DNA from: an uncultured Oscillospiraceae bacterium
Lineage (GTDB): Bacteria; Bacillota; Clostridia; Oscillospirales; Oscillospiraceae
Assembly: GCA_944385465.1 (NCBI GenBank)
Contig: CALWXH010000006.1
Span: forward strand, 1-50,252
Direction of reading: 5' to 3'
DNA: 50,252 nt
Made by a program: the position numbers and the translations under genes. Shown here piece after piece: positions 2,476 through 16,560 of the stretch. The notes beneath the pieces were generated by a model. That model saw nothing but the letters and a program-made list of their open reading frames with translations. It searched no databases and was not told the DNA's origin. How positions within the stretch are numbered: the first letter of the stretch is position 1; every line of letters begins with the position of its first letter.

Positions 2476-4383
2476 ATGGTCTTTCAATATCTCAACAACC
2501 GGCCTCTGGACGAGGCCAGAAGCCAGTACATCGCCCTGCTGCAAGCGCAGGGGCTGGCCCCCCGGGCGCAGACCATCCCCGTCCCGGCCGCCGCGGGCCG
2601 GATGACCGCCCGGGCGGTATACGCCCACATCTGCGCCCCCCACTACCCCGCCTGCGCCATGGACGGCATCGCCGTGCGCGCGGCGGACACCTTTGGCGCC
2701 AGCGACACCACCCCGGTGTCCCTCTCCCCGGAGCAGTACACGCTGGTGGACACCGGCGACCCCCTGCCTGACGGGCGGGACGCGGTCATCATGGTGGAAG
2801 AGGTGGTGTTTACGCAGGGCGAGGCGGTGATCCGCCAGGCCGCCGCCCCCTGGCAGCACGTGCGCCAGATCGGGGAGGACATCTGCGCCGGGGAGATGCT
2901 CCTGCCCGGCCACACCCCCATCTCCCCCGCCGCCATCGGGGCCATGCTGGCCGCCGGGGTGCTGGAGGTGGAGGTGCTGGCCAAGCCGGTGGTGGGCATC
3001 ATCCCCACCGGGGACGAGGTGGTCCCCCCCGCCGCCGACCCGAAGCCCGGGGACGTGATGGAGTTCAACTCCGCCATCTTCTCCGCCATGCTGGAGCAGT
3101 GGGGGGCCTCCCCCCGGGTCTACCCCATCGTCCCCGACCGGGAAGACGCCATCCGCGCCGCCCTGGAGGGCGCGCTGGAGGAGTGCGACATGGTGCTGGT
3201 CAACGCCGGCTCCTCCGCCGGGCGGGAGGACTACGCCGCCGCCGTCATCGGCCAGGTGGGGGAGGTCTTCTGCCACGGCCTGGCCATCCAGCCGGGGAAG
3301 CCCGCCATTCTGGGCCGCCGGGGGGCCAAGCCCATCCTGGGCGTGCCCGGCTACCCGGTGTCCGGCATCATCGTCATGGAGCAGCTGCTGCGTCCCCTGG
3401 TGGACCTGTGTCTGGGCCGCGGGGCGGGGCAGCCTGAGCTGGCCCAGGCGGTGCTCAGCCGCCGGGTGGTGTCCAGCCTGAAATACCGGGAGTTCGTCCG
3501 GGTGCGCCTGGGCCAGGTGGGCGGGCGGCTGGTGGCTGCCCCCCTGGCCCGGGGCAGCGGGGTGGTCTCCTCCTTCATGAAGGCCGACGGCATCCTGGAG
3601 ATCCCCCAGGGCAGCGAGGGGCTGGAGGTGGGGACGCAGGTCCAGGTCCGCCTGCTGCGCCCCGCCCGGGAGCTGGAGCGCACCCTGGTGGCCATCGGCA
3701 GCCACGACCCCCTGCTGGACGAGCTGGCCGACCTGCTCCACCAGGCGGACCCCGACGCCTTTATGAGCTCCTCCCACGTGGGCTCCATGGGCGGACTCAT
3801 GGCCATCCGCCGCCGGGAGACCCATATGGCCGGCTGCCATCTGCTCAACGAGGCCGACGGCACCTACAACACCGCCATCCTGGAAAAGCAGTTCCCCCAG
3901 GGGGGCGTGTACCAGGTGGAGTGCGTGGGCCGCACCCAGGGCCTGATGGTGGCCCCTGGCAACCCCCTGGGCATCACCGGATTCGGGGACATCGCCCGGC
4001 CCGGCATACGGTATGTCAACCGCCAGAAGGGCTCCGGCACCCGCATCCTGGCCGACTACCTGTGCCGGAAGGAGGGGGTGGACCCCGCCAAGGTCTACGG
4101 CTATGACCGGGAGGAGTTCACCCACACCGCCGTGGCCGCCCAGATCGCCGGGGGCACCGCCGACGCGGGCATGGGCATCCTGTCCGCGGCCAGGATCTAC
4201 GGCCTGGACTTCCTGCCCGTGTGCGTGGAGCAGTATGACCTGATCATCCCTGACTACGCCTGGGACACCCCCATGGTCCGCCGGGTGCTGGACATCTTGG
4301 CCGGCCCGGAGTTCCGGGCCCGGCTGGAACAGCTGGGAGGCTACACGTTGGACCGGCCGGGGCGGGTGCGCCGTGTCTACTGA
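2476..4383 (+). CDS. MoeA fused to a C-terminal substrate-binding (PBP-like) domain
   Basis: This 635-residue protein has a complete MoeA region at about 1-395 (MDGIAVRAADTFG, IPTGDEVV, GSSAGRED, GVPGYPVSG). From about residue 400 follows a periplasmic-binding-protein-like domain (AIGSHDPLLDEL, SSHVGSMGGLMA, NRQKGSGTR). This fusion is a known architecture, with a PBP_like domain that may sense or deliver a ligand such as an oxyanion or cofactor. There is no signal peptide, so it acts in the cytoplasm. A good SD (GGGAGGAA) precedes ATG 2476. The 3' end overlaps the next gene by 11 bp, which suggests translational coupling. The ligand of the C-terminal domain is unknown. Confidence 0.9.
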   Translation: MVFQYLNNRPLDEARSQYIALLQAQGLAPRAQTIPVPAAAGRMTARAVYAHICAPHYPACAMDGIAVRAADTFGASDTTPVSLSPEQYTLVDTGDPLPDGRDAVIMVEEVVFTQGEAVIRQAAAPWQHVRQIGEDICAGEMLLPGHTPISPAAIGAMLAAGVLEVEVLAKPVVGIIPTGDEVVPPAADPKPGDVMEFNSAIFSAMLEQWGASPRVYPIVPDREDAIRAALEGALEECDMVLVNAGSSAGREDYAAAVIGQVGEVFCHGLAIQPGKPAILGRRGAKPILGVPGYPVSGIIVMEQLLRPLVDLCLGRGAGQPELAQAVLSRRVVSSLKYREFVRVRLGQVGGRLVAAPLARGSGVVSSFMKADGILEIPQGSEGLEVGTQVQVRLLRPARELERTLVAIGSHDPLLDELADLLHQADPDAFMSSSHVGSMGGLMAIRRRETHMAGCHLLNEADGTYNTAILEKQFPQGGVYQVECVGRTQGLMVAPGNPLGITGFGDIARPGIRYVNRQKGSGTRILADYLCRKEGVDPAKVYGYDREEFTHTAVAAQIAGGTADAGMGILSAARIYGLDFLPVCVEQYDLIIPDYAWDTPMVRRVLDILAGPEFRARLEQLGGYTLDRPGRVRRVY

Positions 4384-5857
4384 GCTGCGTTTTGACGCGG
4401 TGGTGCTGGGGGGCGGCCTGCTGGGCTGCTTTGTCGCCCGCCACCTGACGTCTTATCACCTGCGCTGCGCCCTGGTGGAGGCAAGGGAGGACGTGTGCAC
4501 CGGCATCTCCCGGGGCAACAGCGCCATCGTCTACACCGGTTGCGACAACAAGCCCGGCACCCTGAAGGCCCGGCTGTGCACCCGGGCCAACCGGAACTTT
4601 GGAGATCTGTGCGCCCAGCTGGGCGTCCCCTTCCAGCGCAGGGGCTCCCTGCTGGTGAGCTACGGCCCCCGGGGGGATGAGGTGGTCCGGCGCAAATACC
4701 GCCAGGGGCAGGAGACCGGCGTGGAGGGCCTGGCAATCCTCACCGGCGCCCAGGCGCAAGCCCTGGAGCCCGGGCTGGCCCCCGGGATCTCCTCCGCTCT
4801 GCTGGCCCCCGGCACTGGGGTGACCGACCCCTGGGCGCTGTGTTTTGCCGCCTATGAAAACGCGGTGGCCAACGGCTGCCAGGCCTATCTCAACGCCCCG
4901 GTGACCGCCCTGGCCCGGGCGGGGTCGGACTGGCTGGTCACCGCCGGGGCCCACACCATCCGGGCCAGGGCGGTGGTCAACTGCTGCGGGCTGAACGCCC
5001 ACCGGGTGCAGGAGCTGTGCGCGCCCCCCTCCATCCGGGTGATCCCGGACCGGGCGGACTACCTGGTGCTGGACCAGCCCGCCGGCCCCTTCGTCCGCCA
5101 TGTGATCTTCCAGGAGCCGGAGGAAAAGGGCAAGGGCCTCACCCTGGTGCCCACCGCCGACGGGAAGCTGCTGCTGGGCCCCTCGGAGCAGCCCGGCGGG
5201 GAGAAGGCCGACCGGGCCGTGACGCCGGAGGGGCTGGACTTTCTGCGCCGCGGGGCGGCCCGGGTGGTCCCCAATCTGGATCTGGGGCAGACAATCCGGG
5301 CTTTCGGGGCAACCCGCCCCAACCCCTTTTACGTCCGCCGGGAGGGAGAGAGCTGGGTGGCCGAGGACCGGGGCATCCACAGTTTTGCCATCGAGACGCC
5401 CCATCCGGGGCTCTGGTCCCTCATCGGAATCAAGACGCCGGGGCTCACCTGTGCCGACGCCCTGGGAGAACTGCTGGCCGGGGAGGCGGCGGCCTATCTG
5501 GGCAAGGATACCCCCAACCCGGCCTTCAACCCCTGCCGGACCCCGCCGCCCCGTCCCCGGGACATGGCCCTTCCGGAGCGCCGGGCGCTGGTGGCCGCCC
5601 ACCCCGCCTACGGCCGGGTGATCTGCCGGTGCAAGGACGTCACCGAGGGGGAGATTTTAGAGGCCATCCGCCGGGGGGCCGTCACCCTGGACGGTGTGAA
5701 GCGCCGGGTGGGGACGGGCCTGGGCCGGTGCCAGGGCAGCTGGTGTACCCACCGGGTGCTGGAGCTGCTCTGCCGGGAGCTGGGATGCTCCCCCTGGGAC
5801 GTGACCCAGGACGGGCCGGGCAGCCCCCTGCTGGAAGGTGAGCGCCATGACCTGTGA
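4373..5857 (+). CDS. GlpA-like FAD-dependent oxidoreductase with C-terminal BFD-like [2Fe-2S] domain
   Basis: The 494-residue product has an N-terminal FAD-binding DAO fold (GGGLLGC, SRGNSAIVYTGC) as in anaerobic glycerol-3-phosphate dehydrogenase GlpA. Near residues 417-458 it has a BFD-like [2Fe-2S] motif (ICRCKDV, then CQGSWC). The start is a GTG at 4373 inside the end of the MoeA fusion gene, with only a weak SD, so it relies on coupling. The next gene overlaps by 11 bp and encodes a GlpB-like flavoprotein, so the two probably form one complex. Related clostridial loci often carry a third DUF1667 gene, which is absent here. Its substrate is unknown; the tungsten-locus position suggests a redox role there. 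Confidence 0.85.
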   Translation: MSTELRFDAVVLGGGLLGCFVARHLTSYHLRCALVEAREDVCTGISRGNSAIVYTGCDNKPGTLKARLCTRANRNFGDLCAQLGVPFQRRGSLLVSYGPRGDEVVRRKYRQGQETGVEGLAILTGAQAQALEPGLAPGISSALLAPGTGVTDPWALCFAAYENAVANGCQAYLNAPVTALARAGSDWLVTAGAHTIRARAVVNCCGLNAHRVQELCAPPSIRVIPDRADYLVLDQPAGPFVRHVIFQEPEEKGKGLTLVPTADGKLLLGPSEQPGGEKADRAVTPEGLDFLRRGAARVVPNLDLGQTIRAFGATRPNPFYVRREGESWVAEDRGIHSFAIETPHPGLWSLIGIKTPGLTCADALGELLAGEAAAYLGKDTPNPAFNPCRTPPPRPRDMALPERRALVAAHPAYGRVICRCKDVTEGEILEAIRRGAVTLDGVKRRVGTGLGRCQGSWCTHRVLELLCRELGCSPWDVTQDGPGSPLLEGERHDL

Positions 5858-6761
5858 CGTGCTGGTGGTGGGCGCCGGCGCGGCGGGGATGGCCGCCGCC
5901 CTCTCCGCCCGGCAGGTGGGGGCGGAGGCCGTTTTGCTGGTGGACCGGGACACCCGCCTGGGGGGCGTGCTGCCCCAGTGCCTCCACACCGGCTTCGGTG
6001 AGGTGATCTTCCGCCAGGAGCTCACCGGAGCGCAGTACGCCGCCCGCTGGGCAGCCCGGGTGGAGGCGTCCTGCGTGACTCTCCGGCTGGACACCACCGT
6101 CCTCTCCCTCAGCCCGGAGCGCCGGGCCCTGCTCTCCAGCCCGGAGGGGGTGGAGGAGGTGGCCTTCCGCGCCCTGGTGCTGGCATCCGGCTGCCGGGAG
6201 ATCCCCATCGGCGCCCTGGCCCTGCCGGGCAGCCGCCCCGCGGGGGTCTTCACCGCCGGGCAGGCCCAGCGGATGATGAACCTGGACGGGCTCACCCTGG
6301 GCCGCAGCGCCGTAATCCTGGGCAGCGGGGACGTGGGGCTGGTGATGGCCCGGCAGCTGGCCCTCAGCAGCTGTCAGGTTCTGGCGGTGGTGGAACAGCG
6401 GGAGCGCTGCTCCGCCCTGCCCCGCAACATCCGCCGGAGCATCGGGGACTGCGACATCCCCCTGCTCACCCGCACCACGGTGTGCTGCGTCCACGGGTCC
6501 GGGCGGGTCCGGGGCGTCACCCTCCGGCAGCTGGACACCGGAGAGGAGCGCTTCCTGCCCTGCGACACCCTGGTCACCGCCCTGGGCATGGTCCCGGAGC
6601 GGGAGCTGCTGCGCCCCCTGGGGGAGCCTCTGCCCCCCTGGGTGTTCCCCTGCGGCAACTGCCAGCGCATCCACCGGACGGTGGACACGGTGACCCTCCA
6701 GGGAGAGGCGGCCGGCCGGAAGGCCGCCGAGCTGGCCCTGGGGGCCGGGACTGGCGGCTGA
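5847..6761 (+). CDS. GlpB-like NAD(P)/FAD-dependent oxidoreductase
   Basis: This 304-residue flavoprotein has two dinucleotide-binding motifs: VVGAGAAGMAAA at the N-terminus for FAD and LGSGDVGLVMA near residue 160 for NAD(P). An LPQCLHTGFG segment follows the first, as in partners of GlpA-like proteins. ATG 5847 has GGAAGGTG at 6-nt spacing and is chosen over an in-frame GTG at 5838. The gene overlaps the GlpA-like gene by 11 bp, so the pair is probably made stoichiometrically. The C-terminus keeps a GNCQR segment with a cysteine. It may pass electrons between NAD(P)H and the partner's FAD and [2Fe-2S] centre; physiological partner and direction are unknown. Confidence 0.83.
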   Translation: MTCDVLVVGAGAAGMAAALSARQVGAEAVLLVDRDTRLGGVLPQCLHTGFGEVIFRQELTGAQYAARWAARVEASCVTLRLDTTVLSLSPERRALLSSPEGVEEVAFRALVLASGCREIPIGALALPGSRPAGVFTAGQAQRMMNLDGLTLGRSAVILGSGDVGLVMARQLALSSCQVLAVVEQRERCSALPRNIRRSIGDCDIPLLTRTTVCCVHGSGRVRGVTLRQLDTGEERFLPCDTLVTALGMVPERELLRPLGEPLPPWVFPCGNCQRIHRTVDTVTLQGEAAGRKAAELALGAGTGG

Positions 6762-6762
6762 C

Positions 6763-6791
6763 TTGACAAACCCATCCCGGAAGATTACTAT
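6763..6791 (+). promoter_or_regulatory. Strong sigma-70-type promoter for the tungstate transporter
   Basis: A perfect -35 TTGACA (6763-6768) is separated by 17 bp from the -10 TACTAT (6786-6791), directly after the stop codon of the GlpB-like gene. Transcription would start near 6798, about 235 nt before the tupA start codon, leaving a long leader. Confidence 0.8.
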
Positions 6792-6797
6792 TACAGA

Positions 6798-7031
6798 CAG
6801 AAACCCTCTGACCGGCCTGGCCGGGAGAGGCGGCGCACGCGCGTATCCTTCCAACTGGTGGACGAGCCTTTGGACGGCGGACGGGCGGAGTGCTGGCCCC
6901 TGCGTCACAGCCGGGTCTGCCCTGTACACCATGGGGCAGCCCCGGTTTGCAGTCGTGGGCGGAAGCGCTCCCACCGCAGCTTCCAGACTTGTCTGTCGGA
7001 GAGAATGATACGAAATGGAGATGGACCTGAA
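6798..7031 (+). promoter_or_regulatory. Long structured 5' leader of tupA, candidate riboswitch
   Basis: The 234-nt leader contains several strong hairpins. One at 6805-6830 pairs CCTCT with AGAGG around an inner CCGG/CCGG stem. Another near 6918-6937 pairs CTGCCC with GGGCAG, and one near 6957-6976 pairs GTGGG with CCCAC. Length, structure and position before a tungstate transporter fit a cis-regulatory RNA; molybdenum/tungsten cofactor riboswitches are known upstream of such genes. I could not match the Moco consensus by eye, so the class is unassigned. Confidence 0.4.
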
Positions 7032-8078
7032 ATGAAAAAGATCACAGCGCTCCTGCTGTCCCTGTCTCTGCTGGCGGCGCTTCTCACCGCGTGCACCCAG
7101 CCCCAGGCCACGGAAAGCCAGTCCCCCGCGCCGGACGCCTCTGAGAGCGCCGCCCCCGAGACCGGAACCCCCGAGAGCGACGAGCCCCAGGCCGAAGGGG
7201 TGGATCTGACCATCCTGTACGAGGCCGACGACGACATGATCAACAACTATTCCCTGCTGGCCGTCAACCCCGACGCCCCCTTTGTGGACGCGGACGGCAA
7301 CCCGGTGTCCGACGTGTATATCAACACCGAAGGGGCCAGCGCCCTCATCAACTGGATGCTCTCCGAGGAGGGCAAGACCGCCGCTTCCGAGTACGGCTAC
7401 GCCGACTACGGCGAGTACCTCTTCTATCTCACTGAGGGCGGCCCGGTGTCCACCGCCGAGATCCCCCAGGCCACCGAGGAGACCAAGACCATCCGCATGT
7501 CCACCACCACCTCGGTGAACGACTCCGGCCTGCTGGGCTATCTGCTGCCCCTGTTTGAGGAGGCCTACGGCTACTCGGTGGAGGTCACCTCCGCCGGCAC
7601 CGGCAAGGCCATCGCCAACGCCCAGAGCGGCAACGCCGACCTGCTCCTGGTCCACTCCAAGAGCCAGGAGGAGGACTTTGTGGCCGCCGGCTACTCCTAT
7701 GTGCTGCCCGGCTTTGACAGCGAGCGGCTGACCTTTATGTACAACTACTTCGTCCTGTGCGGCCCCTCCGCCGACCCCGCCGGGGTGAAGGACGCCGCCA
7801 GCGTCAAGGACGCCTTTGCCGCCATCGCCGAGGGCAAGTATCCCTTTGTCTCCCGGGGCGACCAGTCCGGCACCCACACCAAGGAGATCTCCCTGTGGCC
7901 GGAGGAGCTGGGCATCACCGCCGACGCCGCCTCCGTGGAGGGCTACACCGACTGGTACACCTACTCCAACGCGGGCATGGGGGTCTGCCTGACCATGGCC
8001 GAGGAGATGGGGGCCTATATCCTCTCGGACAAGGCCACCTTTCTTACCTTCCAGGCCAACAACGGCGTGATGGAATAA
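7032..8078 (+). CDS. tupA: TupA-type tungstate-binding lipoprotein, apparently circularly permuted
   Basis: This 348-residue lipoprotein has a lipobox LLTAC with Cys21, then an Ala/Pro/Ser/Glu linker to about residue 55. The oxyanion motif TTTSVNDSGLL, normally just after the signal peptide of TupA, lies at 158-168. It is followed by the usual order: DLLLVHSKSQEEDFV, MYNYFV, FVSRGDQSGTHTKE, MGAYILSDKATF and the stop. The segment that normally ends TupA (ILVEGD..NPYGVIAVNP..A..FIDWL.S.EG..G..LF) is instead at 57-134, as ILYEADDDMINNYSLLAVNP, INWMLSEEG and YGEYLF. The protein therefore appears circularly permuted. It is encoded upstream of TupB/TupC-like genes and would capture tungstate outside the membrane. 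Molybdate specificity cannot be excluded. Confidence 0.85.
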   Translation: MKKITALLLSLSLLAALLTACTQPQATESQSPAPDASESAAPETGTPESDEPQAEGVDLTILYEADDDMINNYSLLAVNPDAPFVDADGNPVSDVYINTEGASALINWMLSEEGKTAASEYGYADYGEYLFYLTEGGPVSTAEIPQATEETKTIRMSTTTSVNDSGLLGYLLPLFEEAYGYSVEVTSAGTGKAIANAQSGNADLLLVHSKSQEEDFVAAGYSYVLPGFDSERLTFMYNYFVLCGPSADPAGVKDAASVKDAFAAIAEGKYPFVSRGDQSGTHTKEISLWPEELGITADAASVEGYTDWYTYSNAGMGVCLTMAEEMGAYILSDKATFLTFQANNGVME

Positions 8079-8111
8079 CGCAAACCGGCGCGACGGCGCC
8101 GGGAAAGCCGT

Positions 8112-8182
8112 GTTTTCCGCCAGGCACACGCCCCGGCCGGAGACAGACCGCAGCCCCTTCGCGCCTGCGGGCGCGGACTCTG
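8112..8182 (-). repeat. Dispersed intergenic repeat, copy A (inverted)
   Basis: Read on the minus strand, this stretch matches 37860-37930: CAGAGT, a palindromic CGCGCCCGCAGGCGCG core, and then CGGCCGGGGCGTGT with a GAAAAC end. The core match is nearly perfect and the flanks diverge. It lies between tupA and its terminator. Confidence 0.75.
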
Positions 8183-8200
8183 CGCGGCTTTGGCACTGAC

Positions 8201-8234
8201 AAAAAAGGGCCTGCCCCCGGGCAGGCCCTTTTTT
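8201..8234 (+). terminator. Intrinsic terminator between tupA and tupB
   Basis: AAAAAAGGGCCTGCC pairs with GGCAGGCCCTTTTTT around a CCCG loop. It lies within the transporter cluster, 32 nt before the tupB start, so it probably lowers permease and ATPase expression relative to the binding protein. Confidence 0.88.
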
Positions 8235-8265
8235 GAAAGCAGTAGAATACGGAAGGGGGACGACC

Positions 8266-8952
8266 ATGAGAACCGCCTTTTTTCAGGCGCTGGAGCTGAT
8301 TTTCTCCGGGGACCGGCAGCTGGCCATCATCCTGGCCACCACCCTGCGCATGGCCCTGGCCAGTTCGGTGATCGCCCTGGCGCTGGGCGCCCCGCTGGGG
8401 GTGCTGCTGGGCAGCTATGCCGGCCGGGGCAAGCGGGCGCTGGTGGTGGTGAACCGGACGCTGATGGGCCTGCCGCCGGTGGTGGTGGGTCTGGTGTGCT
8501 ACATGCTCTTTTCCGGGGTGGGCCCGCTGCGCCACCTGCGGCTGCTGTACACGGTGACGGGCATGGTCATCGCCCAGATAATCCTGCTGGTCCCCCTGAT
8601 CACAGGCAGTCTGGAGTCCCATGTGTCCACCCTGGCCCCCCACATCCGGGAGACCGCCCTGGGCATGGGACTGGGCCGGGGCAGAACCCTGCTGCTGATG
8701 CTGAACGAGAGCCAGTACCAGCTGGTGAGCGCCTACCTGCTGGGCCTGGGCCGGGCCTTTGCCGAGGTGGGGGCGGTTTCCATGGTGGGGGGCGCCATCG
8801 CCTATAAGACCAACGTGATGACCACCGCCATCATGAACTACACCAACATGGGGGCCTTCACCACCGCCCTGGCCCTGGGCATCATCCTGCTGGCCATCTC
8901 CCTGCTGCTCAACGCCGGGGTGGCCCTGCTGCACTGGAGGCTGAAACGATGA
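8266..8952 (+). CDS. tupB: TupB-type tungstate ABC transporter permease
   Basis: The 228-residue hydrophobic protein has about five or six membrane segments and the inner-membrane permease core: ETALGMGLGRGRTLLLML, then GLGRAFAEVGAVSMVGG, the typical EAA-loop region of TupB/ModB-like permeases. ATG 8266 follows GGAAGGGGG; an upstream in-frame TTG inside the terminator tail is rejected. Its stop overlaps the start of the ATPase gene as ATGA, so translation is coupled. It forms the tungstate channel with the binding protein and ATPase on either side. Confidence 0.9.
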   Translation: MRTAFFQALELIFSGDRQLAIILATTLRMALASSVIALALGAPLGVLLGSYAGRGKRALVVVNRTLMGLPPVVVGLVCYMLFSGVGPLRHLRLLYTVTGMVIAQIILLVPLITGSLESHVSTLAPHIRETALGMGLGRGRTLLLMLNESQYQLVSAYLLGLGRAFAEVGAVSMVGGAIAYKTNVMTTAIMNYTNMGAFTTALALGIILLAISLLLNAGVALLHWRLKR

Positions 8953-9599
8953 AGCTCCCCCCCATTGCCAAAACCTACGGCGGCCGCAGGGTGCTGGACC
9001 TGCCCGCCCTGGAGCTGGAGGACGGCGTCATCCACGCCGTCATCGGCGCCAACGGCAGCGGCAAGTCCACCCTGGCCCGGATCCTGGCCGGCGCGGTGAA
9101 ACCGGATACAGACGCCGCCGTCCGGACGGGGCGGGTGGGGTACATGCCCCAGCGCTCCTACCCCTTCCAGATGAGCGTGCTGCGCAACCTGCGCCTGACA
9201 GGGGCCGGGCGGGACCGGGCCATGGCCCAGCTGGAGGCCTTCGGCCTGGCCGGGCTGGCCCGGCAGAACGCCAGGGGCCTCTCCGGCGGAGAGGCCGCCC
9301 GGCTGGCCCTGGCCCGGGTGCTGATGGAGGACTACCCCCTTCTCATCCTGGACGAGCCCACCGCCGCCATGGACGTGGCCGCCACCCTGCTGGCCGAGGA
9401 GATCCTGCTGAACTACCACGCCAGGACGGGCTGCACCGTGCTCCTGGTCACCCACTCCCTGACCCAGGCCCGGCGGCTGGCCGGGCAGGTGCTCTTTCTC
9501 CGGGAGGGGCGTCTGGTGGAGCAGGGGGAGGCCGGACAGGTGCTTTTCCATCCCCGCCACGCCGAAACCAAAGCGTTTCTGGACTTTTACGCCCTCTGA
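8949..9599 (+). CDS. tupC: TupC-type tungstate ABC transporter ATP-binding protein
   Basis: This 216-residue ATPase has Walker A GANGSGKST at residues 33-41, the signature LSGGEAAR, Walker B LLILDEP and the H-loop THS. It is short, with no C-terminal regulatory TOBE-like extension of the ModC type, which fits TupC. It starts at the ATG overlapping the tupB stop. A strong terminator follows at 9679. It would power tungstate import through TupB. Confidence 0.9.
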   Translation: MKLPPIAKTYGGRRVLDLPALELEDGVIHAVIGANGSGKSTLARILAGAVKPDTDAAVRTGRVGYMPQRSYPFQMSVLRNLRLTGAGRDRAMAQLEAFGLAGLARQNARGLSGGEAARLALARVLMEDYPLLILDEPTAAMDVAATLLAEEILLNYHARTGCTVLLVTHSLTQARRLAGQVLFLREGRLVEQGEAGQVLFHPRHAETKAFLDFYAL

Positions 9600-9678
9600 C
9601 CCCGGGCCGGCCACCCCCGCCTGTGCCCGCCGGCTGAGCGGGGCAGCCCGGAACGCCGCGCGCGTGCCTCACCGGCCG

Positions 9679-9716
9679 AAGGCCCGTCCCGCACAGCGGG
9701 ACGGGCCTTGTTTTTG
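9679..9716 (+). terminator. Intrinsic terminator after tupC
   Basis: A 14-bp stem, AAGGCCCGTCCCGC with GCGGGACGGGCCTT around an ACA loop, is followed by GTTTTTG. It closes the tup operon. Confidence 0.92.
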
Positions 9717-9758
9717 TCCTGGTGCCGTCGTTTTGCCTAAATTCGTTTCAGTTTTGAG

Positions 9759-9786
9759 TTGAATTCTGCTGTGATTGTGCTATGAT
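9759..9786 (+). promoter_or_regulatory. Promoter of the AOR operon
   Basis: A TTGAAT -35 (9759-9764) and a TATGAT -10 (9781-9786) are spaced 16 bp apart. A TG at 9778-9779, one base before the -10, gives an extended -10. The AOR start codon lies 50 bp downstream. Confidence 0.7.
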
Positions 9787-9835
9787 AAAAGCAGCAAGCA
9801 AATCTCATGGGACCGATCTCAGAGGAGGCGACGGT

Positions 9836-11767
9836 ATGTCATCGAAGTACGGCGGCTACATGGGAAAGGTGATTCAGGTGGATCTCGCCACGGGGAAGGT
9901 CTCCCCCTACCCCTGGTCCGACCGGGAGCGGGAGCTGTACATCGGCGGAAAGATCATGGCGGCCAAGATCCTCAGCGACCACTTCACCGGAAAGGAAAAG
10001 CCCTTTTCCGACCAGAACCTGCTGGTCATCGCCACCGGGCCGCTCACCGGGACGGGGGCGCCCAGCTCCAGCCGGTTCAACATCTCCACCCTGTCCCCAC
10101 AAACCGGCCTGCTGGCCTCGTCCAACTGCGGGGGCAACTTTGGCTACTATCTGAAAAAGGCGGGTTACGACGCCCTGATTCTCCGGGGCCAGGCCAAGGA
10201 GCACACCTGGCTGGAAATCCGCAACGACAAGTTCATCCTCCACAACGCCGACGAGCTGTGGGGCAAGAAGGCCTCCGAGACCCAGGCCGCCCTCTCCCAG
10301 CTGCTGACCCAGGACGGGGCCCCGGACAAGAGCGGCAAGCTCTGCATCGGCCCGGCGGGGGAAAACCGGGTGCTCTACGCCTCCATCATCAGCAACGAGC
10401 GCATCTCCGGCCGCACCGGCATGGGGGCCATCATGGGCTGGATGAATCTGAAGGCCATCACCGTCACCGGCAACCATGTGGTGCGCCCCTATGACCCGGA
10501 GGGCATGCTGAAGTGGAACCGGAAGTGGTTCCGCTATCTCCGCTCCCACCCCCTCACCGGGGAGCAGCTGCCCCGCATCGGCACCGCCGGGCTGGTCAGC
10601 CAGATGCAGATGCGCAAGATCCTGGCCACCGAGAACTTCAAGCACGGCCAGAACAAGGACTTTGAAAAGGTCAACGGCGAGCGGCTGGCGGAGGAGTTCA
10701 ACGTGGTCAACAAGGGCTGCCTCACCTGCCCCATCCGGTGCGCCCGCACCGTGGCCCTGGACGGCCAGGAGGTGAAGGGCCCCGAGCTGGAGACCCTGGG
10801 CCTGCTGGGCGGCGGCATCCGCAACGACAACATGGAGCTGCTGCTGCGCTGGAACTACGAGCTGGATGAGCTGGGCATGGACTCCATCTCCGCCGCCGGC
10901 ACCCTGGCCTGGGCCATGGAGGCCAACGAGAAGGGAATCTGGGACTGCGGGCTGAGGTTCGGGGAGGTGGACGGCATCTCCCAGCTGTGGGAGGACATCG
11001 CCCACCGCCGGGGCATCGGCGACGAGCTGGCCAACGGCTCTAAGCGGCTGTCGGAGAAGTACGGCGGCAAGGACTTCGCCATCCAGTCCAAGGGCCTGGA
11101 GCTGTCCGCCTATGAGCCCCGCCACGCCGTGGGCATGGGCCTGGGGTACGCCGTGTCCAACCGGGGCGGCTGCCACCTCAACGGCGGCTATCTGGTCATT
11201 CTGGAGGGGCTGGGGCTGAGCATCGACAGCCAGACCCCCAAGGCCAAGGCGGACCTCACCGTCATGTTCCAGAACCTGATGGAGATGATCTCCGCCTCGG
11301 GCCAGTGCCTGTTCACCTCCTACGCCTTCTTCCCCGGCCCCCTCATGTCCAAGCCCAACGCCTTCTACACCCGGGCGGCCAACTGGATGCTCCCCCACAC
11401 CGGGGCGGCGGTGCGGATGCTCAATCTGTTCCCCCAGATGGTCCACATGCACCTCTCCCCGGTGTTCCACCACACCAAGGGCTTCCAGTACGCCACCGGG
11501 ATGTCCATGACCTTCGGCAAATACATGAGCATCGGGGAGCGGGGCTACACCCTGGAGCGCAGCGTCAACTGCCGCTTCGGCGTGTCCGCCAAGGACGACA
11601 CCCTGCCCAAGCGGCTCACCGACGAGCTGGAGCGCCCCGGCGACCCCAACAGCCGGGTCCCCCTGGACAAGATGAAGCCCGTCTATTACGCCGCCCGGGG
11701 CTGGGACGCCAACGGCATCCCCACCCGGAGCACCCTGCGCCGGCTGAAGCTGAAGGAGGGGAACTGA
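9836..11767 (+). CDS. Tungsten-dependent aldehyde:ferredoxin oxidoreductase family protein (WOR/AOR large subunit)
   Basis: This 643-residue protein follows the AOR fold. The N-terminal GKVIQVDLATG region leads to TGPLTGTGAPSSSRF and SNCGGNFGYYLK, which contact the pterins. The [4Fe-4S] ligands are Cys295, Cys298 and Cys302 (CLTCPIRC) with Cys491 (SASGQCLF), the same spacing as classical AOR. ATG 9836 has GAGGAGG upstream. It would oxidise an aldehyde to a carboxylate, or run in reverse, at a bis-pterin tungsten centre. It is followed after 1 bp by a MoaD-like gene and then a four-cluster ferredoxin, resembling large/small subunit pairs of gut WOR enzymes. The substrate is not known. Confidence 0.92.
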   Translation: MSSKYGGYMGKVIQVDLATGKVSPYPWSDRERELYIGGKIMAAKILSDHFTGKEKPFSDQNLLVIATGPLTGTGAPSSSRFNISTLSPQTGLLASSNCGGNFGYYLKKAGYDALILRGQAKEHTWLEIRNDKFILHNADELWGKKASETQAALSQLLTQDGAPDKSGKLCIGPAGENRVLYASIISNERISGRTGMGAIMGWMNLKAITVTGNHVVRPYDPEGMLKWNRKWFRYLRSHPLTGEQLPRIGTAGLVSQMQMRKILATENFKHGQNKDFEKVNGERLAEEFNVVNKGCLTCPIRCARTVALDGQEVKGPELETLGLLGGGIRNDNMELLLRWNYELDELGMDSISAAGTLAWAMEANEKGIWDCGLRFGEVDGISQLWEDIAHRRGIGDELANGSKRLSEKYGGKDFAIQSKGLELSAYEPRHAVGMGLGYAVSNRGGCHLNGGYLVILEGLGLSIDSQTPKAKADLTVMFQNLMEMISASGQCLFTSYAFFPGPLMSKPNAFYTRAANWMLPHTGAAVRMLNLFPQMVHMHLSPVFHHTKGFQYATGMSMTFGKYMSIGERGYTLERSVNCRFGVSAKDDTLPKRLTDELERPGDPNSRVPLDKMKPVYYAARGWDANGIPTRSTLRRLKLKEGN

Positions 11768-11768
11768 C

Positions 11769-12020
11769 ATGGTGCGCGTAAAACTGTTCGGCGCCCTGCG
11801 CCTGCGCTCCGGGCTGAAGGACTACCAGCTGGAGGCCAGAAGCCTGGATGAGCTCTACGCTCAGCTATCGAAGATCTCCGCCCACAGCGGGGGTGAGCCG
11901 GTCACCGTCAGGGACCTGCGGGACTGCATCGTCATGATCAACGGCAGGCAGTGCCGGCCCCATCACACCCTTTCCGACGGGGACACCGTGGTGCTGCTGA
12001 CCCCGGCCAGCGGCGGTTGA
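11769..12020 (+). CDS. MoaD/ThiS-family sulfur carrier protein
   Basis: The 83-residue beta-grasp protein ends in SGG, with the C-terminal Gly-Gly needed for adenylation and thiocarboxylate formation. Middle motifs (VMINGRQCRPHHTLSDGDTV) match MoaD/ThiS. It begins 1 bp after the AOR stop and is followed by the ferredoxin gene. Genes of this kind are common next to AOR, where they are thought to supply sulfur for the dithiolene of the tungsten pterin. The likely activating enzyme is the ThiF/HesA protein at 446-1120. Confidence 0.88.
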   Translation: MVRVKLFGALRLRSGLKDYQLEARSLDELYAQLSKISAHSGGEPVTVRDLRDCIVMINGRQCRPHHTLSDGDTVVLLTPASGG

Positions 12021-12036
12021 GAGGAGGTTGCGTCGT

Positions 12037-12447
12037 ATGTCCTATCGCATCACAGACAAGTGCAAGGGCTGCACCCTTTGCGCCAAGAACTGCCCCGTCA
12101 AGGCCATCAGCGGGGCGGTGAAGGAGCGCCACACCATTGATCCCGACCGCTGCGTCAGCTGCGGTGTGTGCGGCAAACTGTGCGCCTTCGGCGCCATCTT
12201 GGACGACCGGGGGATGGCAGTGGCCAAGGTGCCCAAAGAGCAGTGGAAAAAGCCGCAGATCGACCCGGCGCTGTGCGCCGCCTGTTCGGTGTGCGTGGAG
12301 AACTGCCCCAAGGAGTGCCTGGCCATCTCAGACCCCAAGTATCACGGCGACATCACCATGGTGGCCCTGCTGCGCACCCCGGAGGACTGCATCGGCTGCG
12401 GCATCTGCGCCGACCGGTGCCCGGTGGGCGCCATCACCCTGGTGTAA
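12037..12447 (+). CDS. Four-cluster [4Fe-4S] ferredoxin-like protein (WorS-type small subunit)
   Basis: This 136-residue protein has four CxxCxxCxxxC sets: CKGCTLCAKNCP, CVSCGVCGKLC, CAACSVCVENCP and CIGCGICADRCP. That is enough for four [4Fe-4S] clusters. ATG 12037 follows GAGAGGAGG and is preferred over a TTG at 12028. The arrangement directly after AOR and MoaD matches the electron-transfer small subunit of gut WOR-type tungsten oxidoreductases. It would carry electrons from the tungsten enzyme to soluble ferredoxin or to another oxidoreductase. Confidence 0.92.
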   Translation: MSYRITDKCKGCTLCAKNCPVKAISGAVKERHTIDPDRCVSCGVCGKLCAFGAILDDRGMAVAKVPKEQWKKPQIDPALCAACSVCVENCPKECLAISDPKYHGDITMVALLRTPEDCIGCGICADRCPVGAITLV

Positions 12448-12482
12448 CATCAACGGATCCAACGACAGAGAGGAGCATCGTT

Positions 12483-13694
12483 ATGAACAGTTTTGGCAAG
12501 TTGTATTGCAGAGCCTTTCAGACCTGTCTGAAAGTGGGCAACTATTTTCTGGGCTACCGGACTCCGGAGGTCCAGCAGGGTCCAGGCAGCGTGAAGCGGC
12601 TGCCTGAGTTCATCCGCAGCCTGGGCATCACCAACGTGCTGGTGGTCACCGACGCCGGCCTGATGAAGCTGGGCCTGCCCCAGCCCATGCTGGACGCCAT
12701 GGACGCCGCCGGCGTATCCTGCACGGTTTATGACGGTGTGTGCCCCAACCCCACCTCCGACAACGTGGAGGAGGGGCTCAGGATCTACCTGGAGAACGGC
12801 TGCCGGGGCATCGTGGCCATCGGCGGCGGCTCCCCCATCGACTGCGCCAAGGCCATCGGCGCCCGGGTGGCCCGGCCCAACAAGTCTGTGGTCCAGCTCC
12901 AGGGCCTGCTGCGGGTGCGCCACAAGCGGCGCATCCCCCCCTTCGTGGCCGTGCCCACCACCGCCGGCACCGGCTCGGAGACCACTGTGGCCGCCGTCAT
13001 CACCGACTCCGCCACCCACCACAAGGCGTCCATCAACGACACCGCCATCCTGCCCCACTACGCCGTGCTGGACCCGGAGCTGACCATCGGCCTGCCCCCC
13101 TTCATCACCGCCACCACCGGCATGGACGCGCTGTGCCACGCGGTGGAGGCCTACACCAACCACACCTACAACACCCGGTTGGAAAACCGCTACGCTGAGG
13201 AGGCGGTGAAGCTCATCTACGAGAACCTGCTCACCGCCTACCACGACGGGAAGAACCTCCAGGCCCGGCAGAACATGCAGCTGGCCGCCTTCAAGGCGGG
13301 CCGCGCCTTCACCCGGGGCTGCGTGGGCTACGTCCACGCCATCGGCCACACCCTGGGCGGCCTGTACGGCACCCCCCACGGCCTGGCCATGTCCATCCTG
13401 CTGCCCCACGTGATGCGCCAGTTCGGACCGGCGGTCCGCATCCGGCTGGCCCGGCTGGCCGATGTGTGCGGCATGGGGCCGGGCACGGTGGCGGAAAAGG
13501 CGGAGCGCTTCATCCGGTGGATGGAGCATCTCAAGCGGGAGATGGACATCCCCGAAAAGCTGGACATGATCAAGGACGAGGACGTGCCCCAGATCATCTC
13601 CTGGGCCATGAAGGAGGCCAACCCCCTCTACCCCGTCCCCGTCCTCTGGGGCAGGGAGGAGTTCCGGCAGTTCATTGACAAGGTGCGGGCCTGA
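12483..13694 (+). CDS. Iron-containing alcohol dehydrogenase
   Basis: This 403-residue group III dehydrogenase has the NAD(P) motif GGGSPIDCAKAIG, the metal-site region DALCHAVEAYTN and the histidine segment VHAIGHTLGGLYGTPHG. It interconverts an alcohol and an aldehyde with NAD(P)H. The start follows GAGAGGAGC. It is the last gene of the AOR operon, so it may form or remove the aldehyde used by the tungsten enzyme. A hairpin (GCCGTCAG/CTGACGGC, 13695-13725) follows directly but lacks a clear U-run. Confidence 0.92.
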   Translation: MNSFGKLYCRAFQTCLKVGNYFLGYRTPEVQQGPGSVKRLPEFIRSLGITNVLVVTDAGLMKLGLPQPMLDAMDAAGVSCTVYDGVCPNPTSDNVEEGLRIYLENGCRGIVAIGGGSPIDCAKAIGARVARPNKSVVQLQGLLRVRHKRRIPPFVAVPTTAGTGSETTVAAVITDSATHHKASINDTAILPHYAVLDPELTIGLPPFITATTGMDALCHAVEAYTNHTYNTRLENRYAEEAVKLIYENLLTAYHDGKNLQARQNMQLAAFKAGRAFTRGCVGYVHAIGHTLGGLYGTPHGLAMSILLPHVMRQFGPAVRIRLARLADVCGMGPGTVAEKAERFIRWMEHLKREMDIPEKLDMIKDEDVPQIISWAMKEANPLYPVPVLWGREEFRQFIDKVRA

Positions 13695-13808
13695 GCCGTC
13701 AGGCCCCGGCCCGGCCGCTGACGGCCTGCGGGCGGCCCCACTGTCCCCGGGTCAAGCCCGGAGGGATTGACCGGCAGGAAATCTGGCGCATGTTCGGGAG
13801 GGAAGGAC

Positions 13809-14702
13809 ATGAACACCACCCAAATCAAATGCTTTCTGGCTCTGTCGGAGACCCTGAATTTCACCAAGGCCGCGGCCAGGCTCTATCTCTCCCAGCCCGC
13901 CCTGAGCCGCCAGATCGCCACTCTGGAGCAGGAATTGAACACCCTGCTGCTGATCCGGGACTCCAAGAATGTCCGCCTGACGCCCGCAGGCGCCCTGTTG
14001 GCGGAAGAGCTGAGCGGGCTCAACACCGCGCTGGAAGATCTGATCTCCCGCACCAAGGCCATGGGCATGGGCTACAGCGGAAGCCTGACCATCGGCGTGC
14101 TGGAAGGGCAGTGGATGGGGGACACCTTCTCCCAGCTGTGCCGGGCCTTCATCAAGCAATACTCCGGCATTGATTTTCACCTGCAGCAGGGCTCCTTTTC
14201 CCAGCTCCGGCAGCAGCTCAACGACGGGAAGATCGACGCGGCCCTCACCCTGGAATTCGATATCCGGGATATGGGCGGTGTCGTCTGGCAAGTGTTTGAG
14301 CCGGACAGCGCCGTGTTCGCAGCTTCCAGCAGCCTGCCAATCTGCCAGCGGAAAAAGGTGACCTTGGAGGCTCTGATGGCGGAAACGCTGCTGCTCATCT
14401 CCCCGGAGGACAGCAAAACCGGACATGACAGCCTGCTGAGCGACTTGAAAAATCGGGGTTATCACCCCCGTTCTGTCCGGCTGGCCCCCAACTTCTCCAC
14501 CCTGACCCTGTGGATTGAAGCCGGCCTGGGGGTGGGCGTGGTGAACCATTTTTCTGCGCTGACCAAGAATCCCACCATCCGCCTGCTGACGGAGATCCCT
14601 TTGGGCGACGCCTCCCCCTGTATCGTATGGCGCCGGGACAACCTGAACCCATCCATCGCACCTTTCGCGGAGATGGCAAAAGCCTGGAGTCTAAAGCAAT
14701 AA
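13809..14702 (+). CDS. LysR-family transcriptional regulator
   Basis: The 297-residue protein begins with a winged helix-turn-helix (NTTQIKCFLALSETLNFTKA, SQPALSRQI) and has a LysR effector domain. ATG 13809 has GGGAGGGAAGGA upstream. It sits between the AOR operon and the first methyltransferase operon, in the same orientation as both, and could control either. It differs from the LysR at 22057, so the locus carries two such regulators. The inducer is unknown. Confidence 0.92.
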   Translation: MNTTQIKCFLALSETLNFTKAAARLYLSQPALSRQIATLEQELNTLLLIRDSKNVRLTPAGALLAEELSGLNTALEDLISRTKAMGMGYSGSLTIGVLEGQWMGDTFSQLCRAFIKQYSGIDFHLQQGSFSQLRQQLNDGKIDAALTLEFDIRDMGGVVWQVFEPDSAVFAASSSLPICQRKKVTLEALMAETLLLISPEDSKTGHDSLLSDLKNRGYHPRSVRLAPNFSTLTLWIEAGLGVGVVNHFSALTKNPTIRLLTEIPLGDASPCIVWRRDNLNPSIAPFAEMAKAWSLKQ

Positions 14703-14757
14703 CACATTGTTATCGTATCACTCAAATTCTCTATTTCCCTTTTCCCTTGTCTCCCAC

Positions 14758-14763
14758 TACAAT
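14758..14763 (+). promoter_or_regulatory. Possible -10 element of the first methyltransferase operon
   Basis: TACAAT lies 35 bp before the start codon in an A/T-rich stretch. No good -35 is visible at the right distance, which would fit an activator-dependent promoter, for example one using the LysR encoded just upstream. Confidence 0.45.
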
Positions 14764-14798
14764 AAAATCATCTATACCGATGGAAAGGGGCGCAAGCT

Positions 14799-15902
14799 AT
14801 GAATTCCTTTGAAAAGATCCAGCGCTGTTTTGATCTTCTCCCGGTGGAGAAACGGCAGGACATCCCTGTCTACCCCATGATGCTGCTCTATCCCGGCAAG
14901 GTGGCCGGCATGACCCAGAAGGAGATCACCTCCGACACCGACAAGTGGCTCCAGGCCCTGGACATCACCTTCCAGAAGGTGGGCTATCCCGACCTGTGCC
15001 AGGGCAACCCGCCCGGGGACGTGATGTTCCTCCAGGGCATTGAGGCCCTGCGCCCCGGCTACGAGCTGGGGGAGGACGATTCCTACCAGTTCAAGGAGAG
15101 CTGCCGCATGGAGGTGGCGGACTACCAGGACATTGTGGACCACGGCTACCTCCAGTGGTACAACCGCTACCTGTGCACCATCCAGCATCCCCCCGTGTCC
15201 GGCCCCGAGCTGGGCCAGATCTGGATGCGGGTGGGGATGAACGCCGCCAAGGTGGGCCAGTTCCTGGGCCAGCGCGGGGTGTGTCCCATCCACGGCACCG
15301 CCTCCGGCACCCCCTTTGACACCCTGTCCATGGTGCGCTCCTTCCAGGAGTTCGTCTACGACCTGTATGACGAGCCCGACCTGGTGAAGGCCGCCATCCA
15401 GAAAGGCACCCCGGAGGTGCTGGGCAACATCCTGGGCACCCTGGAGCACTCTCCCCTGAAGCGGGCCAGCCTGTACGCCATGCGTTCCGACGCCAACTCC
15501 ATCTCTCCGGAGATCTTCGAGGAGTTCTCCTGGCCCTCCCTGAAGGAGATCATCCTGGGCCTGCACGCCGCCGGTGTCCAGGTGGTGGTCCACGCCGACG
15601 GCAACTGGCTGCCCATGCTGCCCAAGTTCCTGGAGCTGCCCAAGGGCAGCGTGATGATCGAGCTGGACGGCGTCACCGACATCCACGCCGCCCACGAGAT
15701 CCTCAAGGGCTGGCAGGCCATCCGGGGCGACGTCCCCGCCACCCTCATGGCCTTCGGCACCCCGGACGAGGTGTCCGCCTACTGCGCCGACCTGGTGGAA
15801 ATGGCCATGGGCGGCGGCTTTGTGGTGGGCTCCGGCTGTGAGATCCCCCTGAACTGCAAGCTGGAAAATCTCAAGGCCCTCATGGACTCCGTCCGGGCCT
15901 GA
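14799..15902 (+). CDS. Uroporphyrinogen decarboxylase (URO-D)/MtaA-family methyltransferase, HxD type
   Basis: This 367-residue TIM-barrel protein belongs to the URO-D superfamily used in corrinoid-dependent methyl transfer. The C-terminal metal-site region has His265-x-Asp267 (VVVHADGNW) and Cys347 (SGCEIP). Classical MtaA has His-x-Cys plus a distal Cys, so the middle ligand is Asp here. The same positions recur in the protein at 19808-20935. It is followed after 19 bp by a corrinoid protein gene, so it probably transfers a methyl group from a substrate to that corrinoid. SD GAAAGGGG precedes ATG 14799. The methyl donor is unknown. Confidence 0.88.
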   Translation: MNSFEKIQRCFDLLPVEKRQDIPVYPMMLLYPGKVAGMTQKEITSDTDKWLQALDITFQKVGYPDLCQGNPPGDVMFLQGIEALRPGYELGEDDSYQFKESCRMEVADYQDIVDHGYLQWYNRYLCTIQHPPVSGPELGQIWMRVGMNAAKVGQFLGQRGVCPIHGTASGTPFDTLSMVRSFQEFVYDLYDEPDLVKAAIQKGTPEVLGNILGTLEHSPLKRASLYAMRSDANSISPEIFEEFSWPSLKEIILGLHAAGVQVVVHADGNWLPMLPKFLELPKGSVMIELDGVTDIHAAHEILKGWQAIRGDVPATLMAFGTPDEVSAYCADLVEMAMGGGFVVGSGCEIPLNCKLENLKALMDSVRA

Positions 15903-15921
15903 ACGCGGGAGGTATGACACG

Positions 15922-16560
15922 ATGAGCGAACTGATGAACGAAATTGGCGCCGCCCTGGAAAAAGGAAAGCGCAAGCTGGTGGTGCAGTACGTCCAGCAGG
16001 CCATTGACGAGGGCGTCCCCGCCCAGCAGATTCTCAGCGAGGGCCTGCTGCCCGGCATGGATCGGGTGGGGGTCAAGTTCCGCAACAACGAGATCTTTGT
16101 CCCCGAAGTGCTGGTGGCCGCCCGGGCCATGAACGCCGGCGCGGAGCTGCTCAAGCCCCTGCTGGCCGAAGCCGGCGCCGTCAGTGCGGGCAAGATCGTA
16201 CTGGGCACGGTGAAGGGCGACCTGCACGACATCGGCAAGAACCTGGTCAAGATGATGATGGAGGGCAAGGGGCTGGAAGTGATCGACCTGGGGGTGGACG
16301 TGGCCCCCGAGGCCTTTGTCCAGGCCGCCATGGAGCACGGTGCCAACCTCATCGGTTGCTCCGCCCTGCTCACCACCACCATGCCGGTGATGGGCGAGGT
16401 GGTGAAGGCCGCCCAGGCCGCCGGCATCCGGGACAAGGTGAAGATCATGATCGGCGGCGCCCCGGTCTCCCAGGAGTTCTGCGACAGCATCGGCGCCGAC
16501 GCCTACACCCCCGACGCCGCCACCGCCGCCATCCGGGCCTGCGAGCTGCTGGCCCAGTGA
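15922..16560 (+). CDS. Corrinoid (cobalamin-binding) methyltransferase subunit
   Basis: The 212-residue protein has an N-terminal helical cap (about 1-85) and a B12-binding Rossmann domain. The latter carries GDLHDIGKN with the lower-axial ligand His102, then CSALLTTTM and MIGGAPV. It resembles MtaC/MtbC-type corrinoid proteins that carry the methyl group as methylcob(III)alamin. SD GGGAGG precedes ATG 15922. A near-identical inverted paralogue lies at 18939-19574. It is the partner of the methyltransferase immediately upstream. Confidence 0.93.
   Translation: MSELMNEIGAALEKGKRKLVVQYVQQAIDEGVPAQQILSEGLLPGMDRVGVKFRNNEIFVPEVLVAARAMNAGAELLKPLLAEAGAVSAGKIVLGTVKGDLHDIGKNLVKMMMEGKGLEVIDLGVDVAPEAFVQAAMEHGANLIGCSALLTTTMPVMGEVVKAAQAAGIRDKVKIMIGGAPVSQEFCDSIGADAYTPDAATAAIRACELLAQ
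16208..16521 (+). repeat. Inverted-repeat arm 1 within the corrinoid gene
   Basis: This part of the corrinoid gene is nearly identical at DNA level, in inverted orientation, to the matching part of the gene at 18939-19574. The stretch 16396-16466 (71 nt) is identical base for base to the complement of 19033-19103, including synonymous positions. After a few mismatches identity resumes to 16521. Confidence 0.85.

Follow-up and report, generated by a model that had tools for sequence, protein, structure and literature searches.

The tup locus and its binding protein

The window analysed here is the whole 50,252-nucleotide stretch of DNA from an uncultured Oscillospiraceae bacterium, and its genes and the promoter match described below lie on the forward (+) strand. 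Positions 7032-8078 hold an intact open reading frame (ORF) encoding a protein of 348 amino acids, a TupA-like, putatively tungstate-binding protein in which the pieces of the chain stand in a permuted order; we confirmed that this observation is real. At its N-terminus stands a lipoprotein-type signal with Cys21 as the last residue (7032-7094), recognized in the sequence and modelled by AlphaFold2 (AF2) as a helix at residues 2-18; a mostly disordered linker follows (residues 22-56; 7095-7199; pLDDT below 50 at 21-54). The segment that ordinarily forms the C-terminus of TupA comes next (residues 57-134; 7200-7433), followed by a new linker, delimited by conservation, that joins the old C-terminus to the old N-terminus (residues 135-152; 7434-7487), and then by the TupA core (residues 153-341; 7488-8054), which is covered by the Pfam match (PF12849, residues 149-341 only) and by the main phmmer match. 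The joining stretch is remarkably constant, with residues 134-152 corresponding to exactly 19 residues in all 119 related permuted ORFs that we collected. A preliminary description of the locus had placed the moved piece at residues 57-134 and the sequence TTTSVNDSGLL at residues 158-168, and both placements hold, the former by phmmer, by a second profile match and by rotation of the chain. It had also let the protein stop directly after the motif DKATFLTF, which is nearly right: the stop comes 8 residues later, after the residues QANNGVME, which form a new tail at the C-terminus (from residue 341; tail and stop, 8055-8078), and the permuted ORFs listed all end 7-11 residues past this motif.

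Within the moved segment, a DADGNPVSD loop (residues 86-94; 7287-7313) was recognized by alignment and conservation. It is mostly kept across the permuted form, and the nearest ordinary TupA, encoded at the locus L157, is 11 residues shorter there. The loop resembles a metal-binding turn, although this is an impression only.

The gene lies in an intact tup operon, as had been proposed. It is followed by a TupB-like permease gene (8266-8952), which scores 132.5 bits with NF041773 (below the cut-off of 320) and 170.5 bits with NF038017 (above the cut-off of 100), and by a TupC-like ATPase gene (8949-9599), assigned by PF00005 and by its place after tupB. Further downstream lie genes for an aldehyde ferredoxin oxidoreductase of the AOR/WOR family (9839-11767), which is the sole PF01314 match in this draft genome of 108 contigs, for a MoaD/ThiS-like protein (11769-12020; profile matches) and for a multi-[4Fe-4S] ferredoxin (12028-12447; Pfam). 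A ModA is encoded elsewhere in the same draft genome, in which no further match to TupA was found. The arrangement recurs among the relatives: all 109 permuted ORFs whose flank reaches 1200 bp have tupB no more than 600 bp downstream (the flanks of the other 10 of the 119 are shorter). Where the downstream sequence extends to 3900 bp or more, 26 of 57 ORFs have an AOR match, weak ones included, somewhere in their flanks.

Upstream of tupA there is a sigma-70-like promoter match, TTGACA-17-TACTAT (6763-6791; 10/12); three such matches occur in positions 6500-10000, as compared to a mean of 0.3 in shuffled sequences. An Rfam scan of positions 3000-16000 returned no match at gathering scores, and thus no described riboswitch in that region. 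Between tupA and tupB, at 8201-8235, lies a GC-rich inverted repeat with runs of A and T on its two sides, which might keep expression of the permease below that of the binding protein; in the scan, only a site on the minus strand was flagged here.

The ligand site could be traced through the TupA of D. alaskensis. In that protein, according to PMC5517513, lobe A is formed by A2-R76 together with Y201-E251 and lobe B by A91-Q200, the site residues displayed are Thr9-11, Ser12, His59, Arg118, Thr124 and Asp170, and the site Arg was tested for selectivity. Alignment to its structure 5my5 (chain positions and the published numbers differing, by our own reckoning, by 23) recovered all of the equivalents in our protein, namely the TTTS motif (T158-160 and S161; 7503-7514), H208, R275 (=Arg118) and T281 (=Thr124) within SRGDQSGTH (7851-7877), and D333; the moved piece contains none of the displayed residues. 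Seven of these eight positions are identical in 119/119 permuted ORFs, and T160 is kept in 117, with Ser in the other 2.

The kept ligand residues and the neighbouring genes suggest that the protein most likely binds tungstate for import. We regard it as very probable that it is a working, lipid-anchored, derived and naturally permuted TupA of a TupABC importer, serving beside the only AOR-type enzyme of the genome. It is conceivable that it descends from a permuted TupA and has changed its ligand to molybdate or another oxyanion, a reading that would fit the long branch (0.54) separating the permuted form from ordinary TupAs, a score below the cut-off of the NCBIfam TupA model and several short insertions relative to L157. 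However, the conservation of the displayed residues, the selectivity Arg included, the adjoining sole AOR and the presence of a separate ModA in the genome make such a change of ligand unlikely.

Chain order, cut position and predicted fold

Searching the PDB with phmmer returned five entries, 3muq, 3lr1, 5my5, 3kn3 and, weakly, 3cvg; according to PMC5517513, 3muq and 3kn3 should be counted among the TupAs. Against 3muq, residues 152-341 of our protein align to chain positions 5-179 (139.4 bits), and the piece expected after the core (positions 182-232) matches residues 57-106, which precede the core. The second match, at 12.6 bits with an i-Evalue of 0.62, is weak when taken alone, and could be read as an added N-terminal domain merely resembling the end of TupA. 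The NCBIfam model of TupA (NF041772) also matched in two stretches, scoring 137.6 bits where its cut-off is 400, and the protein is therefore filed here as a permuted variant rather than as a standard TupA member.

The profile comparisons argue against an added domain. With a profile built from 59 ordinary TupAs (5 long ordinary rows were left out), the moved piece of our protein forms a separate second match of 42.0 bits in the permuted position, as is the case in 35 of the 37 thinned permuted proteins that were tested unrotated. When the chain is rotated back, a permutation-aware comparison of the kind that had been proposed, it gives one near full-length match (8-249 of 253). For the 37 proteins as a set, the median best match rose from 180/253 positions and 230.1 bits before rotation to 243/253 positions and 278.6 bits after it. 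Returning the front piece to the end increased the score in all 37 (median +48.5 bits), and this gain was gone when the front piece was shuffled (-1.8 bits). The same rotation lowered the median of the ordinary TupAs, which are the profile's own rows, to 289.5 bits, as compared to 379.9 bits for the chains as they are. In a scan in which the chain was rotated every 4 residues and compared to the ordinary L157, the best starts fell at 136-152, that is, within the joining linker (580, versus 496 unrotated).

The ordinary end is absent from the C-terminus, and the lobe A - lobe B - lobe A chain order of ordinary TupAs is not found in our protein. A standard C-terminal segment beyond the stop, separated by a sequencing frameshift, had been named as a finding that would refute the permutation; however, in the sequence after the 119 permuted ORFs, searched over at most 600 nt (8 of them had fewer than 600 nt, two of these none), a profile of the permuted segment (E <=1) detected no remnant, and an ordinary profile gave one meaningless match there (E 0.83). 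None of the 196 ORFs with a TupA core that we collected carries the segment on both sides, as either a duplicated intermediate or an added domain might.

The AF2 model, built with 33 permuted sequences, is a good one (mean pLDDT 84.9, pTM 0.75), and according to it the protein is predicted to fold as a TupA. The preliminary description had asked whether residues 57-134 might form an unrelated extra domain; in the model they instead follow a strand-strand-helix-helix order (strands 59-63 and 70-78; helices 99-109, 112-120 and 123-126), with block-mean pLDDT values of 85-98 for residues 61-140 and 68 for residues 51-60. Taken with the profile results, this leaves the added-domain explanation very improbable. 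The nearest solved folds found by Foldseek were the TupAs 3lr1 and 5my5, along with 3muq and 3kn3, so that 5my5 and 3lr1 (the latter from G. sulfurreducens) are among the nearest structures both by sequence and by fold. The best matches span 191-199 columns (for 3lr1, 193 columns with TMt 0.66 and rmsd 3.5; for 3muq, TMt reached only 0.38); such partial coverage is expected for a permuted chain, since the Foldseek alignment runs in chain order.

By the lobe limits published for D. alaskensis TupA (PMC5517513), the core comprises the first half of lobe A, the central strand and most of lobe B. Y201, at which the chain returns to lobe A, corresponds to Y73, and the cut lies about 14-16 residues ahead of it, so that the new N-terminus is the last strand of lobe B. 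The moved segment thus consists of this strand and the second half of lobe A. While the permutation itself, which had been described as one of a whole domain, is borne out by the profiles and the rotation control, the cut inside lobe B means that the moved piece is not a whole domain.

Distribution and origin of the permuted form

A homologue search, which had been proposed as a guide to the age of the permuted form, gave 100 distinct proteins, and the trees indicate a single origin as far as sampled. The 220 loci that we gathered yielded the 196 ORFs with a TupA core, in which the segment lies before the core in 121, after it in 70 and in neither place in 5. Of the 121 permuted ORFs, 119 contain most of the core (some being cut by contig ends) and two are one-lobe forms (L141 and L142); the 119 represent 100 distinct sequences, with some genomes sampled twice. 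By NCBI ranks, the 80 named loci belong to Oscillospiraceae (43), Lachnospiraceae (10), Eubacteriales without a family (11) and lineages without an order (16); by class, 75 are Clostridia and 5 have no class. In our genome samples, each including the genome of this ORF, the permuted form occurs in 5/42 genomes of the genus, 34/300 of the family (counted as matches spanning the joint), 4/394 of the order and 4/391 of the class, and in 1/398 of the phylum, the one being the genome of this ORF. Ordinary TupA, with its chain order verified, was found in 8 of the 300 family genomes.

That the reordered version is common to many related bacteria suggests that the rearrangement is natural and old and not an error. 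An assembly error or frameshift that broke an ordinary tupA and left its end missing or out of place might be suspected from a draft genome and from the MAG or uncultured titles of most of the 80 related records, but it is refuted for practical purposes by these conserved relatives, which keep the same order and a constant linker in 100 distinct proteins and include Flavonifractor sp. An92 (L006; record title neither MAG nor uncultured) and a single-contig genome (G118), as well as by the lack of a C-terminal segment within the stretches of at most 600 nt searched downstream.

Among plasmids, 116 records matched the query, none covering 80% of it, with no sign of the permuted form; the 15 matches listed cover the core only (about residues 144-348). 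A full-length but strongly diverged permuted relative, in which TTTS and SRGD are lost, is encoded in the genome G082 (L140:2609-3565, + strand). No tup genes were found within the 6.5 kb around it, and on visual inspection its neighbours resemble a beta-propeller protein and a nucleotidyltransferase.

In a tree of the core only (190 columns, 105 thinned rows), one branch with an SH-aLRT of 100 splits the permuted form from all 64 ordinary rows and L173, an ORF in which neither arrangement was found. A tree of core and segment (274 columns, 53 rows), from which 10 long or fragmentary rows were left out and in which about every second row of most others was used, supports the permuted group at 100/100 and joins it, at 98/90, to four TupAs of ordinary order that group together at 99/94: L157 (G554, same order), L144 (G091, same family), and L192 (G1344) and L193 (G1424) of the same phylum. 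L157 and our protein both carry STTTSVNDSGLL, and the rotated chain is identical to L157 at 140/275 alignment columns; besides 11 additional residues near the DADGNPVSD loop, our protein shows other short insertions. In the genomes sampled, the permutation occurred once, within Clostridia. Both trees were midpoint-rooted, and since such roots are midpoints only, the direction of change is argued from the ordinary order of the solved TupAs and of the ordinary rows across the phylum sample.

Together, the profiles with their rotation control, the conservation, the trees and the strand-helix order of the model support the reading that this TupA is truly circularly permuted and that its tup operon is intact. 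At the loci L169 and L218, tupB is preceded by a tandem pair of tupA-like ORFs of ordinary order, a possible starting arrangement; since such pairs exist, it is plausible that the permutation arose by tandem duplication, fusion and trimming.

Proposed history, one-lobe relatives and known systems

We propose that in an ancestral ordinary TupA the old C-terminus became joined to the old N-terminus through the 19-residue linker, and that the new ends arose within lobe B, directly ahead of its last strand. The ligand residues (TTTS 158-161, H208, R275, T281 and D333) are kept and both lobes are predicted to be, so that tungstate should be trapped between the lobes and passed to TupB, supplying the adjacent tungsten enzyme. 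Whereas ordinary TupA builds lobe A from two pieces of the chain, this lobe is now one continuous stretch, and the membrane anchor would have shifted from lobe A to lobe B. A simple lipobox pattern is present in only 76 of the 119 permuted ORFs, so that anchoring may not be universal; we infer the move of the anchor, and any effect it might have. With the cut site, the sister group, the single origin and the constant linker resolved, an ordinary relative offers a comparison for the effect of moving a lobe and its anchor.

A duplication route is generally assumed for the origin of two-lobed binding proteins. In the genus g84, of the same family, we found, at a fixed locus, a lipoprotein related to the permuted TupA that appears to consist of lobe A only, in 5 of 9 genomes (G124, G1444, G1445, G1446 and G328; L221:1501-2184, L223:1480-2127 and L225:1483-2166, and on the minus strand L222:1501-2133 and L224:1495-2151), and a further such protein occurs in another genus (G286; L141:2705-3307, minus strand). 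Of the 300 genomes sampled for the family, one-lobe forms were conspicuous in G124, G328 and G286 only. The g84 proteins, whose boundaries were judged by eye, keep the part of the segment that starts with the lobe-A strand, followed by the linker and by the lobe-A core as far as the central strand, where the chain ends; TTTS and SRGD are lost. The one-lobe proteins as a whole, that of G286 included, lack the ligand motifs and are cut near the published lobe limits. No TupB, TupC, AOR, MoaD or ferredoxin match was found at the one-lobe loci at E 1e-5. A DUF308 gene adjoins in 5/5 g84 loci and a threonine-aldolase-like gene in 4/5 (the fifth locus is short), neither of which neighbours the G286 gene.

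Among the one-lobe genes, differences are more frequent at third codon positions than at second ones in 10/10 pairs and than at first ones in 9/10, modestly in several, a pattern that agrees with selection on the protein but does not prove it. An AF2 model from 6 sequences was fair (pLDDT 77.7, pTM 0.66) and gave weak Foldseek matches to binding proteins (best TMq 0.41), and it is therefore not taken as proof of a lobe-A fold. We tentatively suggest, as a possibility somewhat short of even, that the permutation, with its continuous lobe A and its anchor on the other lobe, opened a route to lobe-A-only proteins, a natural reverse of duplication. If so, these descendants would be natural material on the rise or decay of two-lobed binding proteins.

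Tungsten is a rare metal, and surveys of its use that rely on models such as NF041772, which scores this protein so far below its cut-off, may undercount TupA; if NCBIfam-like models were used, this would concern Oscillospiraceae and related Clostridia. With the TupAs of D. alaskensis (5my5) and G. sulfurreducens (3lr1) and the NF041772 family, our protein has in common the core, the ligand residues and an operon with tupB and tupC. It differs from ordinary TupA in that the C-terminal piece (about 78 residues) comes first, a new 19-residue linker is present, the chain ends lie in lobe B and the DADG loop is longer.

Among the titles and abstract openings listed in a search of open-licence PMC papers, none concerned a permuted form of TupA or of a tungstate-binding protein. 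Three tungsten papers searched for the stem "permut" do not contain it (PMC13328260, PMC11980592 and PMC5517513); in PMC8306680, the sole paper found that combines tungstate, TupA and this stem, it refers to a statistical test. As no description was found, the permuted TupA is apparently new, while permuted ABC binding proteins as such are already known, the only other natural case among the matches listed being a sugar-binding one. This is TpMglB-2 (Tp0684) of Treponema pallidum, a permuted glucose-binding lipoprotein of an ABC importer for which its authors proposed the name "Type Ic"; according to PMC4990184, it is found in Gram-positive bacteria too, gut commensals among them, ligand binding is kept in the authors' data, and the authors proposed a possible link with membrane tethering. 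The features of "Type Ic" recur in our protein, in which the ends are relocated, the moved part is absent from its old place and the predicted fold is two-lobed. Among the five PDB sequence matches to our protein there is no sugar-binding protein, and hence no sign there of homology to the MglB (Type I) family. The two represent natural circular permutations in the binding protein of an ABC importer, one in a sugar-binding Type I protein and the other in a probably oxyanion-binding TupA.
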